Source: Desulfovibrio sp. Huiquan2017 (GTDB lineage Bacteria > Desulfobacterota > Desulfovibrionia > Desulfovibrionales > Desulfovibrionaceae). From it: a stretch of DNA of 64,000 nt. Below are positions 5,654 to 13,359 of this stretch, in pieces. The stretch lies in assembly GCF_017351175.1 (NCBI RefSeq), contig NZ_JAFMPN010000010.1, forward strand, positions 62,001-126,000. Direction: 5' to 3'. Position 1 is the first letter of the stretch; every line of letters starts with the position of its first letter. The notes beneath the pieces were generated by a model that was given only the letters and a program-made list of their open reading frames with translations, was not told the DNA's origin and did not search any database. Made by a program: the position numbers and the translations under genes.

Positions 5654-5692
5654 AAACGCCCTGTCCGGCTACCGCCGGACAGGGCGTTTTTC
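5654..5692 (+). terminator. intrinsic terminator after pnp
   Basis: A 15-nt arm AAACGCCCTGTCCGG and its exact complement enclose a short loop, followed by a T-run. It lies about 20 nt after the pnp stop and should end the infB-rpsO-pnp transcript. Confidence 0.9.
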
Positions 5693-5822
5693 TTGCCGCC
5701 GCCAACCGAAAGGCCTCCTTCGAGAACGTTCCTGCCCTTCCTGCACCGCCGTTCTCATCGTTTCGCGGGGGTTGTGGGCGTATGGCCAGGGTGATATCTT
5801 GAGCAGTGAATGGGAGAAAGCG

Positions 5823-6035
5823 ATGAGTAAAATCGTCATTTATGGCAAATCGACATGCCCGCACACCAAGCGGGCCCTGGCCGCCCATCCGGAGGCGCGC
5901 TTCGTGGACATCCTGGCCTCGGAAGCCAACATGGAAGAGATGCTCAGGCTCTCCGGCGGACAGCGACGCATCCCGGTCATCGTCGAAGAGGGCAAGGCCT
6001 GCGTGGGCTTCAAGCGAGGCTCCTGACACGTCTGA
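5823..6035 (+). CDS. glutaredoxin-like UXX-star selenoprotein (UGA at 6024 read as selenocysteine)
   Basis: A tiny thioredoxin-fold protein with IVIYGKSTCPHTKRAL (Cys12 in a CPHT site), a VDILASEANMEEMLRLSGG helix and RRIPVIVEEGKACVGFKRGS. Conventional reading stops at the TGA at 6024, giving 67 residues. The frame continues TGA-CAC-GTC-TGA, which gives a Sec-His-Val-stop ending. This matches the ending that names the Uxx-star glutaredoxin-like selenoprotein family, as I recall it. A 17-nt stem-loop with a GGU loop begins 10 nt after the first TGA, the spacing expected of a bacterial SECIS. The start is ATG 5823 with GGGAGAAAG upstream. The gene is monocistronic, between two terminators. The exact redox role is unknown. 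If UGA is not recoded, the CDS ends at 6026. Confidence 0.75.
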
Positions 6036-6053
6036 TCCCGGCAGGTTGCCGGG
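6024..6053 (+). promoter_or_regulatory. predicted bacterial SECIS element
   Basis: UGA 6024-6026 is followed after 10 nt by a 7-bp stem, CCCGGCA (6037-6043) with TGCCGGG (6047-6053), closed by the loop GGT. The apical GCAGGUUGC closely resembles the upper part of the E. coli fdhF SECIS (GCAGGUCUGC), whose GGU loop is read by SelB. The element extends past the second stop codon, as expected when Sec lies two codons from the end. I did not fold it by software. Confidence 0.7.
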
Positions 6054-6060
6054 CCGCGAA

Positions 6061-6088
6061 AAAAGGCCATCCATCCGGATGGCCTTTT
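6061..6088. terminator. bidirectional intrinsic terminator
   Basis: AAAAGGCCATCC and GGATGGCCTTTT form a 12-bp stem with a 4-nt loop, flanked by A and T runs on both sides. It separates the rightward selenoprotein gene from the leftward Memo gene and can serve both. Confidence 0.85.
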
Positions 6089-6122: not shown

Positions 6123-6932
6123 TTAGCGGACCAGCACTCCCGCGTAGCCCACCACCTGCTCAAAATCGCCGGAGGCCTCGCCCGAGGTGGCGTAGGCAAC
6201 CAGTTCGGCGTGGGTCGCGCCGAGTTCCCTGGCCGCATACAGCCCAGCGGTCATGGGCAGGACCCCGCACATGGTGATGCCCTGGGAGCGCACGGTCTCG
6301 TAGAGCTTGGCCGGTTCCAGCGTCATCACCGGCTCCAGGGCCATACCGTCCATCTTCCGGGCATTTTCGTGGGATATGTAGTGGCTCATGTCCGAGCTGA
6401 CCACCAAGGACACGGGTTCGGGGAAATCCGCCAGCACCTTGCCCATGGCCCGTCCCACCCGTTCCAGGGACTCCAGGCCGGGCAAGGAGACGCAGACGGG
6501 CACAATGGTCGTGTCCGGGTTGAGTCGATGCAGAAACGGCAAGACCACCTCCAGGGAATGCTCGCCCATATGCGCGGCCGTGTCCGCCTTGATGCCCGGA
6601 TCGGCGGCCAGCAGCGCTTCGGCCAGCGCGGTGTTCACGGCCAGAGAGCCGCCGGGGACAAGCCAAGCCCCGTCAGGCCATAGGGCGAACCGTTCGCCCC
6701 GCCCCGTATGGTTGGGGCCGAGCAACACCACGATGGACGCGAGATTGGCCGCGCCCAAGGTGCGGCCGCAGACCTCCCCGGAAAAAACGTACCCGGCATG
6801 GGGGACCATAGCCAGCAGAGTCGGTTCTTGCTGCCGCTTCCCGGCCAAGCTGAGAAAACCGTCCACCACGGCGTGCAACCTATCAGGACGCGCATCGTAA
6901 AACCGTCCGGCAACGATGGGATGTCTATCCAT
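6123..6932 (-). CDS. AmmeMemoRadiSam system protein B (Memo family)
   Basis: A 269-residue Memo-like protein related to class III extradiol dioxygenases. Typical landmarks are MDRHPIVAGRFYDA at the start, VPHAGYVFSG, LLGPNHTGRG, MGEHSLEVVLPFL, VVSSDMSHYIS and TSGEASGD near the end. The histidines in HAGY, GPNH and GEHS are those expected to line the metal pocket. In prokaryotes this protein usually occurs with an AMMECR1 protein and a radical SAM enzyme. Neither is adjacent here. I chose the ATG at 6932, which has GGAGAGG upstream. A start at 6971 would add 13 unrelated residues. It ends against the bidirectional terminator. Confidence 0.9.
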   Translation of the reverse strand: MDRHPIVAGRFYDARPDRLHAVVDGFLSLAGKRQQEPTLLAMVPHAGYVFSGEVCGRTLGAANLASIVVLLGPNHTGRGERFALWPDGAWLVPGGSLAVNTALAEALLAADPGIKADTAAHMGEHSLEVVLPFLHRLNPDTTIVPVCVSLPGLESLERVGRAMGKVLADFPEPVSLVVSSDMSHYISHENARKMDGMALEPVMTLEPAKLYETVRSQGITMCGVLPMTAGLYAARELGATHAELVAYATSGEASGDFEQVVGYAGVLVR

Positions 6933-7060
6933 ATTGTCACCTCTCCAAACAAATGTTGCAGAATTCCACACCCCCCGTTTAGCACACTATCGGGCACAAC
7001 CAAACCCGCAAGACGGAAAAAAAGCGGAGGAAACGGACCATACAGGAAAGGGCCGAAACC

Positions 7061-10000
7061 CTACCCGGGATTGGGGGCGTACTGACTGGCCTTCTGTTCG
7101 AGGTCGTAGGTCTCCAGGGCGGACTTGGCGAGTTGGGCCTGAAGGGAGTCAGGCTTCTTGTCGATGATGTCCTGCAAAAGCTGCTTCCATTCATCCATGG
7201 CCCCGGCCTTGCGGTAGATACGGGCGAGCTTGAACCGGGTGGAGGCCCATTCCGGATTGTCCACCGAGATATACTTGTCGTACTCCTTGGCCCATTTGAG
7301 CGCCTCCTCGTAGCGGCCGGACCGCTCGGTGGCGTAGATGGACATGAGCACGGCGTCCTTGATCTTCTCGGGATCGCCATTGGTCTGCAACAACAGGGAC
7401 AGAGCCTCCTGCGAATAGACGAAGACACGGCGCAGGTCCTGACGCTCCATGGCGTCCTTGGCCATGTAGTACATGGCGTAGGCGCGGAAGGCCGGGTCCA
7501 CGGTGGTGTCCTTGGCCAGGTCGGCCCACAGGGTCACGGCCCGCTTGTCGTCGCCCAGATTCTGCAAGGCCATGGCCCGGGCGTATTGAAGCTGACGCTC
7601 CTGCTCGGGCTTGAGCTTCCAATGCTTGGAAGCCATGGAAACCAAGTCCGAAATGTCCTGCCAGGCGAGTTGATCGAGATAGATGTTCACGGCCAGCCCC
7701 AGGGCTTGGTCCGAGACGCCGGGAATCTGTTTCTCGACCAGGTACGGCTTAAGCATCTCCAAGGCCTTGTCCGGCTGGCCGATCTTCCAGTAGCTGGTGG
7801 CGATGGCGAGCTTGGTGGCGTCGTCAACCTTGGAGTCCTTCTTGCCGATGAAATCGTAGGTCTCCCAGTAGCGGATGATGCGACCGTAACGCTGTTCGGC
7901 CAGCATGCCGGGCACGGCACGGACAAAGACCGAGTCGCCCAGGGTCCGGGCTTTTTCCACCAGAGGGCTGTCAGGGTACTTCTCGATGAGGTCCTGGGCT
8001 GCGGTCAGCGCTTCGGGATATTTTTTGTTGAAGGCGTACCACATGGCCAGCTTGAGCTGGGCGATGGGCGCCAGCGGGCTATCCGGATGCTGCGAAACGA
8101 TCTCGGTATAAACCCGCTTGGGGTTGAGGTTGTACGGGCGGTTGAAGACATCGACCATCTCGTTCATGGCCGGATCGTCGTAAATGCCCTCCTCGGCCAG
8201 ACGCATCTTGGCGATGAGCCCACCCTCCTTGTCCGGATAGTCCTTGGCCGCCTTTTCATAGACCTGCTTGGCCGCGTCCTTCTCGTTCTTGCGCAGATAG
8301 ATATCCCCGATGCGGGCCAGGACCACGTCCGCGCCGTCCGCTTCGGGATTCAGGTTGTAGTAGGTGAAATAGTGGTTCTTGGCCTGGTCCCACTTCTTGA
8401 GCTGCATCTCCACGCCACCCGCCAACCGCAGAAAGTCCATGTTCTCCATGTAGTAATCGGGCCAGCGTTTGTCGATGTAGTCCACGATCTGGTAGGCTTG
8501 GTCCAGGTAGCCCAGGCGGTTCAGGGAATCCGCCAGATAGTAGGCGGCCTGCTTGGCCAACTGGTGCTCGGGGTAGGTCTGGATGAGATATTGGAACTGA
8601 TCGGCGGCCTTCTTGTAGTCGCCCTTGCGGTACCAGTATTCGCCCCAATAATAGCTGATGGACGGAATATTGTCGTCGTCCGGGTACTTGTCCTGCAAAA
8701 TCTTGAAATAGGCCCGGGCCTCGGGGAAGTTGCCCACCTGGAGGTTAAGCAGGCCGAGGTTGAGCAGGGCTCGCGGCACACGGCTGGAACGCAGGTTGGC
8801 GTTCATGGCCTGGATGTAAGCCTGGGCCACTTCGTCGAACTTGTTCGCCAGATCTTTGGAATCGAGCTGCTTCTTGATGTCGGCCACGGCATACAGGGTT
8901 TCCTCGCGTATGTCCTCCGGCAACTTAGGCTGCTTGAGGATGTCCTCGTACAACGGCAGCGCCTCTTCCAACGCACCGTTGAACATCAGGGACTGCGCCT
9001 CGTAGAGACTGTCGCGGAGGGCCTGGATGCGGGCCTTTTCCTTTTCGGCGGGCGACAACTCCTTCGCGGGCGCTCCTTCGGCGCCCGGCTGCACGTCGGC
9101 GGGCGCGGACGACTCGGCATCGGCCGTTTGTGCGGGCTGTTTCGGGGCCGGTTGGGCGGGTTGCTCCACGGCCGGAACGGGCGGCTCCGCAGGCGGGACG
9201 GGTTGCGTTGCCGTGGGGACCGGAGCGGGCGTCGCTTCGGGCGTGGCCGGAGGCGGCGAGACCGCACCACCGGCCTGTCCCGCGTCGGCCATCGGCGGCG
9301 GAGGCGGCGACACCGCACCACCCACCTGCCCCTGGCCCGATATTTCGGCCGGAGTCGGGGCCTCGGTTTTGCGCGTCTCGCCCGGCTCGGCCGACGGGGG
9401 CGGGCTCACGCTGCCGAGCACTTCGTTGCCGGGAGAGTCCTGCGCCGGGGCCGGAACTTCCGCAACCGGTTGCGGCTCGGCCCGAACAGGTTGCGGCGGC
9501 GGGGCCACGGTCTGACGCACGACCGGCTCAGCAGGAGAGCCAGTCTCGGGACGCGACCCGGGTTCGGCTGGCGCAACCACCGGGGAAGCGCCCCCCGCGT
9601 CACCGGCCAACTCCGCGAACTTCACGTCCTCGGCTGACTTGTTCACCGCCTTGAAACGCAACTCGCTGGCAGGCGGATAATCGCCGGTCACGGCACCGCC
9701 GGGGGCGGCTGGTGCCGGAGTTTCCGCGGCAGAGGTAGCAGTCCGGTCGCCGGGGGCTTGGACCTCGTCGCGCACGGAATAAGGCACGGCGAAAAACGGT
9801 TTGCGTCCGGCGGGCGGAGTCTCGGGAGGCAGATCCGTCTCGGACTGCACCGGGGCGGGCTGGTCTGGACGGACCGCGGACAGGTTGCGGGCCACGTCGG
9901 CGGCCGTGGGAGCTTTGGGCTCGGGCGCGGCGGCTTTGGCCACGGGCGTAGCGGCCCGGGATGGTGGGGTCTGCGTCGCGGCTGGTGCGGTCCGGGGAGC

Positions 10001-10441
10001 CTGAGCGGACCGGGCCGGAGGCGCGGCGGGCGACCGCCAGCGTGCGCCGATGGGATCGTTGTAGACCTGGAGAACAAATTCCGGTTTGCCCTGCTCGGGC
10101 ACACGGATGTAGCCGAAAGCGTCGGTCGAGGTGGTGATCTCTACCCCGTTGTCCGTGACGGCCATAGCCTTGACCAGCTTGCCAGGAAAGCTTCGGGATT
10201 CAGGCCGGGATTCCCGGCCCCAAATGCCCATGGGCAGCAGGATCTTCATGGACGTTTTGCCCGTCCTGGCCACCGTTGATTGGGGTAATATGCTGGAATC
10301 AAAAGCGAAAACAATTTTGTCTGAGTCACCCTGAGAAGAAAAGTCCACCCTCAGGGCTTGGGCGGGGTCAACCAAGACCAGTCCCAAGACAAGGGCGGCC
10401 GCCAGGGGCCAGGCTATGCTTTTGACATATTTCACAGTCAC
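7061..10441 (-). CDS. large exported TPR-repeat protein with proline-rich linker
   Basis: A 1126-residue protein. Residues 1-29 look like a signal peptide (SIAWPLAAALVLGLVLVDPAQA). Residues 30-130 form a beta-rich domain (LRVDFSSQGDSDKIVFAFDS onward) that resembles an AMIN-type cell-wall-binding domain. Residues of roughly 140-460 are a low-complexity linker very rich in Pro, Ala, Glu and Val, with repeated AVSPPPP-like words. The rest is a long array of tetratricopeptide-type helical repeats, for example ALPLYEDILKQP, GNFPEARAYFKILQDKYP and KGDYKKAADQFQYLIQTYP. The likely role is a periplasmic or envelope scaffold, possibly for peptidoglycan or motility. The start is uncertain: GTG at 10441 or GTG at 10435, neither with a good ribosome-binding site. 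It follows the sigma-54 activator in the same direction with 64 nt between them. Confidence 0.8.
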   Translation of the reverse strand: MTVKYVKSIAWPLAAALVLGLVLVDPAQALRVDFSSQGDSDKIVFAFDSSILPQSTVARTGKTSMKILLPMGIWGRESRPESRSFPGKLVKAMAVTDNGVEITTSTDAFGYIRVPEQGKPEFVLQVYNDPIGARWRSPAAPPARSAQAPRTAPAATQTPPSRAATPVAKAAAPEPKAPTAADVARNLSAVRPDQPAPVQSETDLPPETPPAGRKPFFAVPYSVRDEVQAPGDRTATSAAETPAPAAPGGAVTGDYPPASELRFKAVNKSAEDVKFAELAGDAGGASPVVAPAEPGSRPETGSPAEPVVRQTVAPPPQPVRAEPQPVAEVPAPAQDSPGNEVLGSVSPPPSAEPGETRKTEAPTPAEISGQGQVGGAVSPPPPPMADAGQAGGAVSPPPATPEATPAPVPTATQPVPPAEPPVPAVEQPAQPAPKQPAQTADAESSAPADVQPGAEGAPAKELSPAEKEKARIQALRDSLYEAQSLMFNGALEEALPLYEDILKQPKLPEDIREETLYAVADIKKQLDSKDLANKFDEVAQAYIQAMNANLRSSRVPRALLNLGLLNLQVGNFPEARAYFKILQDKYPDDDNIPSISYYWGEYWYRKGDYKKAADQFQYLIQTYPEHQLAKQAAYYLADSLNRLGYLDQAYQIVDYIDKRWPDYYMENMDFLRLAGGVEMQLKKWDQAKNHYFTYYNLNPEADGADVVLARIGDIYLRKNEKDAAKQVYEKAAKDYPDKEGGLIAKMRLAEEGIYDDPAMNEMVDVFNRPYNLNPKRVYTEIVSQHPDSPLAPIAQLKLAMWYAFNKKYPEALTAAQDLIEKYPDSPLVEKARTLGDSVFVRAVPGMLAEQRYGRIIRYWETYDFIGKKDSKVDDATKLAIATSYWKIGQPDKALEMLKPYLVEKQIPGVSDQALGLAVNIYLDQLAWQDISDLVSMASKHWKLKPEQERQLQYARAMALQNLGDDKRAVTLWADLAKDTTVDPAFRAYAMYYMAKDAMERQDLRRVFVYSQEALSLLLQTNGDPEKIKDAVLMSIYATERSGRYEEALKWAKEYDKYISVDNPEWASTRFKLARIYRKAGAMDEWKQLLQDIIDKKPDSLQAQLAKSALETYDLEQKASQYAPNPG

Positions 10442-10505
10442 GGCAAGCAGTTATGCAATTGTCGTGCTACCCGTAAAACGGGCAGCTCTTGCCCTACTCC
10501 GCAAG

Positions 10506-11522
<1,017 letters not shown>

Positions 11523-11599
11523 TTTTCCTCCCAATGCACATGGATACGCTACCAGCGGGACCCATTGCCCCGCAGCCATATCATTACTATACATCTTCT

Positions 11600-11624
11600 C
11601 TGTCAATTTACTGACAGCATGTCA
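11600..11624. promoter_or_regulatory. TGTCA inverted-repeat cluster upstream of the sigma-54 activator
   Basis: CTGTCA (11600), TGACAG (11612) and TGTCA (11620) form two overlapping inverted repeats: CTGTCA-N6-TGACAG and TGACA-N3-TGTCA. They lie 78-102 nt before the activator start. On the minus strand the half-sites overlap TTGACA hexamers that could be -35 elements. This suggests an operator. The binding protein is unknown. Confidence 0.4.
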
Positions 11625-11684
11625 ACGACTATAACCCCTTCACAAGAAGAAATTCTGGAAAATCACCCCCCTGCCCGTGAGCTG

Positions 11685-11910
11685 GAAAGGGAAGCCTCCG
11701 GCGGCCGGGGCGCTGCCCCGGACCCCGCTCAAGACCCTCTTGAAAGAGGTTCTTGAGAATCTCCAGAACTTCTTGTCGCCGCTTCGCGGAAGCCACGCGT
11801 TCGCACGCTCCGTGCTTCCTTCCGATCACATAACTCCCCGTAAAAAAATAAGCCTCTTCGCGAAGCGGCACCAAAAACAGTAAGGAGGATGGGGGCTGGG
11901 GGAAGGAGGC
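11685..11910. repeat. REP-like intergenic element, two inverted copies
   Basis: This 442-nt gap (11523-11964) holds no convincing gene. From 11694 it reads GCCTCCGGCGGC, then an imperfect hairpin around CTCTTGAAAGAG, then AACTTCTTGT followed by CGCCGCTTCGCGGA (ending 11790). From about 11846 to 11910 the reverse complement of a similar tail follows (GTGCCGCTTCGCGAAG and CCCCCAGCCCCCATCC). A close relative lies at 22389-22503. The repetition in separate intergenic gaps marks a dispersed palindromic element rather than a gene. Confidence 0.6.
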
Positions 11911-11964: not shown

Positions 11965-13359
11965 TCACAAGCGGCGGATGATTTCCTTGGCCGGGATGAG
12001 GGCGGTGGCGGCGGCACCGACGATGTTCCCGGCCACGCCGGGTCCGTCACCGGCCACGAAGAGGCCGTCCACGCTGGTTTCGAGATGCTCCCGGGTATCG
12101 ACCTGGGTGGCGAAGAACTTGATTTCCGGCGCGTAGAGCAGGGTCTCGTCATTGGACACGCCCGGGACAACATTGTTGAGCTGTTCGAGGCCGTCCATGA
12201 GGTTGGTCAGGATACGCTCGGGCAGGGCCATGGCGATGTCGCCGGGAACCACGTTGCGCAGGGTCGGCTCGATGTAGCCGCTGCCGATGCGGTCCCAGGT
12301 GGACCGACGGCCCCGACGCAGGTCGCCGAACCGCTGGAGAATGGGCTTGCCCCCGCCGATGAGGGTGGCCAGGCGGCCGATAGACTCGCCGTAGGCTTGG
12401 TTGTCCTCCACCGGATCGTTGAGCACCACCCTGGACAGGAAGGCGAAATTGGTGTTGTCGGACTTCTTGTGCATAAGCGCATGGCCGTTGACGCAGACGA
12501 AGTCCTGGTAGTTTTCGAGGGCCACGTAGCCGCCGTAATTGGTGCAGAAGGTCCGGGTCTGATCGTCGTACTTGTTCGTGCGCACGAAGAAGGTCGGGTC
12601 GTAGATGACCGAGCAGAGGTCCTGCATGATCTCGTTGTGCACTTCCACGCGCACGCCCACTTCGATGCCCCGCTGCGACACTTGGATGCCGTGCTTGCGC
12701 ACCTCTTGGGCGACCCATTCCGCGCCCACCCGGCCGGGGGCGAGGATGACGTTCCGGGCGGTGTACTCGTGCCGGTCGGTGATCACGCCCGCAACCTTGC
12801 CCTTGTTCACGACCACGTCGGTGACGGTCTCGGAGGTATGGAAAACCACACCCTTGTCGCGAATGTGATCGGCCATGCCCGCGATATGCCCGGGCAGATT
12901 GTCGCTGCCCAGATGCTTCTGCTTGATGACCAGCAGGTCGATGCCGTGCTTGCGGGCCTCTTTACGAATCTGCTTGGCCGTCTCCATATCGGTCGGGAAG
13001 ACCTTTCCATCCATATTGAATTTATTAAATATCGCCTCGGTTTCATCAATGAGTCGAAGGGCTTCCGAGGTGCCCACGAACTGGGTCAGGTCAGTCTTGC
13101 CGAGTTTATGGATGTAGTTGAGCTTGCCGTCGGAGAACAGCCCGGCCCCGCCCACGCCGCACAGGATGTTGCACGGGCGGCACTTGACGCACCCCTGGTC
13201 CCCGGAAATGGGACAGTTGCGCTTGAGGGAGCGCTTGCCCTTGTCGATGAGCAGCACGCTCAGATCGGAATGCTCGCTCAAATAATAAGCGGCGAACAGC
13301 CCGGCCGGGCCCGCGCCCACAATAATGACGTCGTAATCGGTATTCACGGTCTTGGTCAT
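11965..13359 (-). CDS. FAD-dependent dehydrogenase/oxidoreductase, COG2509 family
   Basis: A 464-residue flavoprotein. The N-terminal dinucleotide fold is YDVIIVGAGPAGLFAAYYL. A cysteine-rich segment follows: CPISGDQGCVKCRPCNILCG, then GVGGAGLFSDGKLNYI, the signature of the COG2509 uncharacterised FAD-dependent dehydrogenases. A second FAD-contact region is NVILAPGRVGAEWV and the C-terminus has GLFVAGDGPGVAGNIVGA. The Cys cluster could hold a metal centre, but this is not established. Substrate unknown. The start is ATG 13359 with GAGGAGAAC upstream. A longer frame to 13500 adds 47 unrelated residues. It appears monocistronic, with its own terminator. Confidence 0.88.
   Translation of the reverse strand: MTKTVNTDYDVIIVGAGPAGLFAAYYLSEHSDLSVLLIDKGKRSLKRNCPISGDQGCVKCRPCNILCGVGGAGLFSDGKLNYIHKLGKTDLTQFVGTSEALRLIDETEAIFNKFNMDGKVFPTDMETAKQIRKEARKHGIDLLVIKQKHLGSDNLPGHIAGMADHIRDKGVVFHTSETVTDVVVNKGKVAGVITDRHEYTARNVILAPGRVGAEWVAQEVRKHGIQVSQRGIEVGVRVEVHNEIMQDLCSVIYDPTFFVRTNKYDDQTRTFCTNYGGYVALENYQDFVCVNGHALMHKKSDNTNFAFLSRVVLNDPVEDNQAYGESIGRLATLIGGGKPILQRFGDLRRGRRSTWDRIGSGYIEPTLRNVVPGDIAMALPERILTNLMDGLEQLNNVVPGVSNDETLLYAPEIKFFATQVDTREHLETSVDGLFVAGDGPGVAGNIVGAAATALIPAKEIIRRL

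Follow-up and report, generated by a model that had tools for sequence, protein, structure and literature searches.

Selenocysteine predicted at an in-frame UGA of a glutaredoxin-like UXX-star gene in Desulfovibrio sp. Huiquan2017

In Desulfovibrio sp. Huiquan2017, the UGA codon at position 6024 of a glutaredoxin-like gene almost certainly encodes selenocysteine (Sec) and extends the product by three residues, making the gene a single-Sec member of a named selenoprotein family. The complete reading is that of a 70-residue selenoprotein of glutaredoxin fold, in which UGA 6024 would be read as Sec via SelB and the hairpin at 6037-6053, and the TGA at 6033 would serve as stop codon; its probability is estimated at roughly 0.93. 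The reading frame, the family, the conservation, the covariation of the hairpin and the Sec machinery were observed computationally. The protein family itself is already known and this gene is an additional member of it. One gene is corrected and one more selenoprotein is predicted for this organism.

The gene lies in a stretch of 64,000 nucleotides, here called the window (Table 1). On its forward strand the frame opens with the ATG at 5823, reaches the TGA at 6024-6026 and continues with CAC GTC TGA at 6027-6035. Translation of 5823-6035 with the first TGA as U yields MSKIVIYGKSTCPHTKRALAAHPEARFVDILASEANMEEMLRLSGGQRRIPVIVEEGKACVGFKRGS-U-HV, a protein of 70 amino acids which ends in G-S-U-H-V-stop. 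This continuation had been proposed in the initial annotation, and its coordinates proved exact to the base. In line with the expectation that standard gene calling would cut the protein by three residues, a mechanical listing of open reading frames stops at TGA 6024; the 70-residue reading adds U-H-V. Among the 317 TGA-ended open stretches of at least 60 codons in the window, the combination of a stop three codons on and a hairpin is unique to this gene.

Table 1. Features of the UXX-star gene and its surroundings (positions in the window).
Feature	Position	Strand	Basis
Likely ribosome-binding site, GGGAGAAA, upstream of the ATG at 5823	5812..5819	+	read by eye
UXX-star family 1 selenoprotein gene (predicted), 70 codons and stop, Sec68 = TGA	5823..6035	+	translation and NF041114 match
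C12-P-H-T glutaredoxin active-site motif; this Cys is Sec in many relatives	5856..5867	+	translation, relatives
TGA codon 68, predicted selenocysteine	6024..6026	+	UGA in 173/174 distinct relatives
H69 and V70 codons, two residues past Sec	6027..6032	+	+2 is V/I/L/C in 132/132 rows
TGA, true stop codon in the Sec reading	6033..6035	+	stop here in 119/132 rows
SECIS-like hairpin with a stem of 7 bp and the loop GGU (apex A-G-G-U-U), located entirely past the stop codon	6037..6053	+	hairpin rule, RNAfold
Inverted repeat GGCCATCC-ATCC-GGATGGCC, A-run on one side and T-run on the other; possible terminator common to the facing gene	6065..6084		by eye

The protein matches the NCBIfam profile NF041114, "UXX-star selenoprotein family 1", with 96.7 bits when the tail is included and 88.3 bits without it, both above the cut-off of 72. 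The earlier proposal that the Sec-X-X-stop ending belongs to a known family of glutaredoxin-like selenoproteins is therefore supported by a curated profile. The name UXX-star presumably denotes a Sec codon third from the end, followed by two residues and a stop, and TGA CAC GTC TGA at 6024-6035 displays exactly this arrangement. The Pfam profile Glutaredoxin is matched as well, with 29.1 bits against a cut-off of 22.9. The row for NF041114 in PMC13188914 describes a 'Distant Grx-like protein 1 (UXX-star selenoprotein family 1)' with the motif UxxT and two Sec residues, and the corresponding list entry in PMC9312934 gives 'Distant Grx-like protein 1' with the motif UxxT. In contrast to that row, the protein described here carries CPHT instead of UxxT, with Cys as its first residue of the motif, and thus only one Sec; the two-Sec trait is a listing in this row of PMC13188914 and not a part of the NF041114 cut-off. 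The profiles of UXX-star families 2 and 3 (NF041211 and NF047338) and of the subfamily NF041212 also align along most of the protein, but their scores stay below the respective cut-offs (37.4/100, 34.3/97 and 56.1/66 bits).

The strongest argument comes from the relatives. A tail UGA is present in 173 of the 174 distinct relatives scoring at least 60 bits, the remaining one (L180) being cut by the end of its contig; the set was merged from overlapping sets in which UGA-less proteins would have been listed, so that this count does not arise by construction, and the UGA counted was the first in-frame TGA near the tail or, for tails with an insertion, one within the pattern G-[GR]-[TSA]-U, which favours finding U. 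The initial annotation had suggested examining whether homologues carry Cys or UGA at this position. The UGA half of this check turned out positive, and a Cys-ended homologue does not occur in this sample.

Within the taxonomic family, a homologue was found in 31 of 149 genomes, own genome included. All 30 homologues that were fetched carry TGA at the tail, and in 29 a stop follows exactly three codons later (L040 runs on). On the level of the phylum, NF041114 is matched above the cut-off in 100 of 395 genomes, and in 207 at an E-value of 0.001. Thirty loci from this search were read, along with 80 additional stretches, of which 71 exceed the cut-off. Combined with the family set, this amounts to 142 matches; 134 of them end in the UGA tail, corresponding to 132 distinct rows plus two duplicates. 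Ten matches were dropped, namely two duplicates with UGA (L077, L138), one edge fragment (L077) and seven tail-less CxxC redoxins (L149-L154, L156). The 132 rows were kept for having a tail UGA, which makes their 132/132 TGA a matter of construction, and four of them score below 60 bits. At the second residue after the UGA these rows have Val (109), Ile (19), Leu (2) or Cys (2), and the third codon is a stop in 119 (TGA 63, TAA 29, TAG 27) and a sense codon in 13.

Among named relatives, which by title include Desulfovibrionaceae, Pelotomaculum, Anaeromyxobacter, Planctomycetes and Acidobacteria, the UGA tail is present in 37 of 38 loci and the last one is cut by the contig end; the pattern by which this sample was drawn demands an N-terminal Cys. 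For the phylum to which Anaeromyxobacter oryzae belongs, a search at an E-value of 1e-9 gave matches in 28 of 195 genomes (21 over the cut-off). A UGA tail was found in 22 of the 28; six lack it and are ordinary CxxC redoxins. Altogether, none of the 13 ordinary CxxC matches (L149-L154, L156; L223-L228) ends in a tail with UGA or with Cys.

These data bear directly on the alternative that UGA 6024 is a real stop and that HV-TGA and the hairpin follow it by chance. The mechanical ORF listing does end at this codon, and the free energy of the hairpin is ordinary for its composition. A chance ending is nevertheless extremely improbable given the near-complete conservation of the UGA, a Val or Ile codon with free third base at +2 in most relatives, the +3 stop shared by 119 of the 132 rows, a hairpin that covaries (see below) and a profile score that rises from 88.3 to 96.7 bits when the tail is added.

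The tails of the relatives also vary. In L127, L129, L135-L140 and L147, inserted residues precede the tail (...FAG..LFGGTU and similar) and the UGA comes later; several of these have no stop at +3. The frame stays open beyond residue +2 in L040, L076, L142, L143 and L146; the tail is then longer, or translation would enter the hairpin region.

Ten bases separate the UGA from the inverted repeat CCCGGCA-GGT-TGCCGGG (6037-6053), and RNAfold returns the same 7-bp stem with the GGU loop, exactly as it had been described beforehand. According to PMC13188914, bacterial SECIS elements have a loop of 3-9 nt with G in its first two places, a stem of 4-16 bp and a distance of 16-37 nt from UGA to loop. 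The hairpin falls within these bounds with a stem of 7 bp and the loop GGU 17 nt after the UGA. Its fold energy is ordinary (z -0.71; 48 of 200 shuffles of this G+C-rich stretch fold at least as well) and was dropped as evidence for a SECIS. Hairpins were also scored with an own fixed rule, which demands one G near the start of the loop. By this score, 24 of 5000 dinucleotide shuffles contain an equally good hairpin with its loop 16-25 nt past the UGA, and 4 of the 317 TGA-ended open stretches of at least 60 codons in the window have one. A search against Rfam gave seven matches, every one under its gathering score, and no SECIS among them. The strong evidence for the Sec reading is the conservation across relatives.

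A hairpin of bacterial SECIS geometry is present in 102 of the 132 tails, compared to a mean of 3.3 (0-8) in shuffles; the remaining 30 tails have no hairpin of the set quality. When the arms were swapped between relatives, 12.75 of 127 (10-19) passed, in contrast to 102 for the true pairs, which indicates that the arms covary. In 83 distinct cores with a 5-nt apex, position 2 is G in all 83 and position 3 is G or U in all 83; the presence of an apex G is partly built in by the scoring rule, its fixed place and the following G or U are not. In 87 of 88 cores, the 5-nt apex follows the UGA at a distance of 16-22 nt. Since a per-pair table of the cores contains only those preselected for a good stem and excludes 14 whose loops measure 4 or 7 nt, the pairing percentages in it are biased, and the argument is based on the shuffle and arm-swap tests instead.

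In most relatives the hairpin lies past the stop codon, being placed so by the stop at +3. This is the usual place of a terminator, and a second inverted repeat is present further on at 6065-6084. It is nonetheless highly unlikely that the SECIS-like hairpin (6037-6053) acts as a terminator of transcription or forms another structure of the mRNA end instead of a SECIS. No T-run follows it, and the relatives keep both the apex distance (87 of 88 cores) and the G and G/U at apex positions 2 and 3 (83 cores). Terminators are not known to follow such a rule. The apex pattern N-G-[GU]-N-N resembles that of the bacterial SECIS of formate dehydrogenase and, by eye, also of fdnG and selD in the own genome. 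Furthermore, it fits the bSECIS model as given in PMC13188914.

In the preferred Sec reading, SelB would bind the hairpin just downstream of UGA 6024 and, together with Sec-tRNA, would decode this codon as selenocysteine. After Sec68, His and Val would be added before termination at TGA 6033. The family provides about a hundred naturally varied SECIS candidates, mostly outside coding sequence, so that constraint on the RNA alone should be visible in their base changes. If the reading is true, these SECIS elements, which do not have to encode protein as well, would lend themselves to studies of recognition by SelB.

The initial annotation had suggested checking the genome for selABCD and had named a lack of selB or selC as a refutation. 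All four were found over their curated cut-offs (selA 615.3, selB 386.2, selD 329.7 and selC, the tRNA-Sec, 79.6 bits). The own genome also contains fdnG (1494.7 bits) with one in-frame TGA, and selD likewise contains one. The two, selD and fdnG (L158, L160), are selenoprotein genes themselves, with SECIS-like hairpins after sites which we take to be their Sec sites from the sequence context. The apices there, TGGCA for fdnG and GGGAC for selD, are of the type N-G-[GU]-N-N when read by eye.

Within the phylum, selB exceeds its cut-off in 353 of 395 genomes, so that its co-occurrence with the UXX-star gene is uninformative and was discarded as evidence (92 of 100 carriers vs. 261 of 295 non-carriers, searches compared by hand). 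In the taxonomic family, 29 of 31 carriers have selB. Eight of eight named carriers tested, mostly from other phyla by title, have selB over the cut-off. For the ten carriers without an over-cut-off selB, the tRNA-Sec exceeds its own cut-off in seven; in three carrier genomes (G022, G308, G340) neither of the two does. Here, G340 is rated 100% complete and its UXX-star gene (L091) has two UGAs; an assembly gap is the only explanation we can suggest. In two other genomes the UXX-star gene is located close to selB, once within about 0.3 kb (G194:C54, selB 6470-8356, UXX-star 8701-8904) and once at about 0.9 kb (G229:C215, selB 9800-11686, UXX-star 12635-12838).

Structurally, the protein appears as a thioredoxin-like fold with a CPxx motif, in agreement between Pfam, model and fold matches. 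The AlphaFold2 model, calculated with Cys in place of Sec, has a mean pLDDT of 94.0 and a pTM of 0.82, with 63 of 70 residues at 90 or above. The top fold matches in the PDB are mostly glutaredoxins, and a search of solved structures gave glutaredoxin-type chains only. Fold and N-terminal CPxx motif are shared with Glutaredoxin 3 and NrdH, but the C-terminal helix into which ordinary glutaredoxins extend is absent. In the model, the protein seems to end where ordinary glutaredoxins enter this last helix. The last ten residues have a pLDDT of 91 with short strand assignments. Because of this confident tail and the ending at the place where the helix would begin, the tail is taken as an ordered arm carrying the predicted Sec. 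The Cys is kept at the usual glutaredoxin site (CPHT), and the protein would end in a short tail with Sec.

The hidden tail residue Sec68 is probably the functional one. Most likely, we infer, Cys12 and Sec68 act together, either as a relay for thiol/selenol exchange or in joint binding of a soft metal or metalloid. A tail serving chiefly as ligand for metals or metalloids (mercury, arsenic, copper), rather than in a redox relay, is a plausible though less likely alternative. The review PMC13188914 mentions that UXX-star Sec may bind metal or other unknown substrates, and ArsD entries occur among the weaker fold matches (ranks 26, 49 and 50). On the other hand, the fold matches are dominated by glutaredoxins, and metal genes are not among the immediate neighbours; the neighbours of the relatives were compared and are mostly unnamed.

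The least expected result is an asymmetry between the two sites, the tail being without Cys in this sample and the N-terminal site switching. Of the 132 rows, 101 carry Sec at the N-terminal site and 29 carry Cys (own gene included); one has Gly and one was not parsed. For the 174 proteins the numbers are Sec 113, Cys 60 and Gly 1, with Cys over-sampled by the pattern demanding it. On a rough tree of about 70 columns, in which Sec was masked but the column of the N-terminal site was retained, this site requires a minimum of 26 switches from Cys to Sec or back; 20 sets of shuffled labels need 46-54. Cys was found at the tail Sec site in none of the 173 distinct proteins, some of them from other phyla, and the search profile, written with Cys for U, would favour Cys tails. 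In one genome two UXX-star genes lie in tandem, both with a double UGA (G503:C16:100071-100271 and 100496-100696).

Nearly all selenoproteins have Cys homologues, and the tail of UXX-star family 1, as sampled here, would be the reverse of this usual case. Since the N-terminal residue swaps freely and the tail residue is never Cys in 173 proteins, the tail Sec might be an obligate selenium position with a chemistry impossible for sulfur, a proposal that we put forward tentatively and at slightly less than even odds. If so, selenium handling, a low-potential diselenide or selenenylsulfide switch, or the binding of very soft metals would be possible functions.

Upstream of the gene and on the same strand lie rpsO and pnp, and a gene for an AmmeMemoRadiSam B protein faces it downstream. 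By eye, an inverted repeat with a T-run is visible at 5657-5691 between pnp and the gene. A terminator scan reported neither this repeat nor the one at 6065-6084, and a promoter was also not found by it. The claim that the gene is monocistronic is consistent with the flanking repeats and the facing downstream gene, the scan lending it no terminator; from the sequence, the arrangement would fit a single-gene transcript. In the loci of 97 relatives that were compared, most with only about 1.5 kb of flank, no recurring operon was recognised, and a relative of the AmmeMemoRadiSam B gene is nearby in 8 of the 97.
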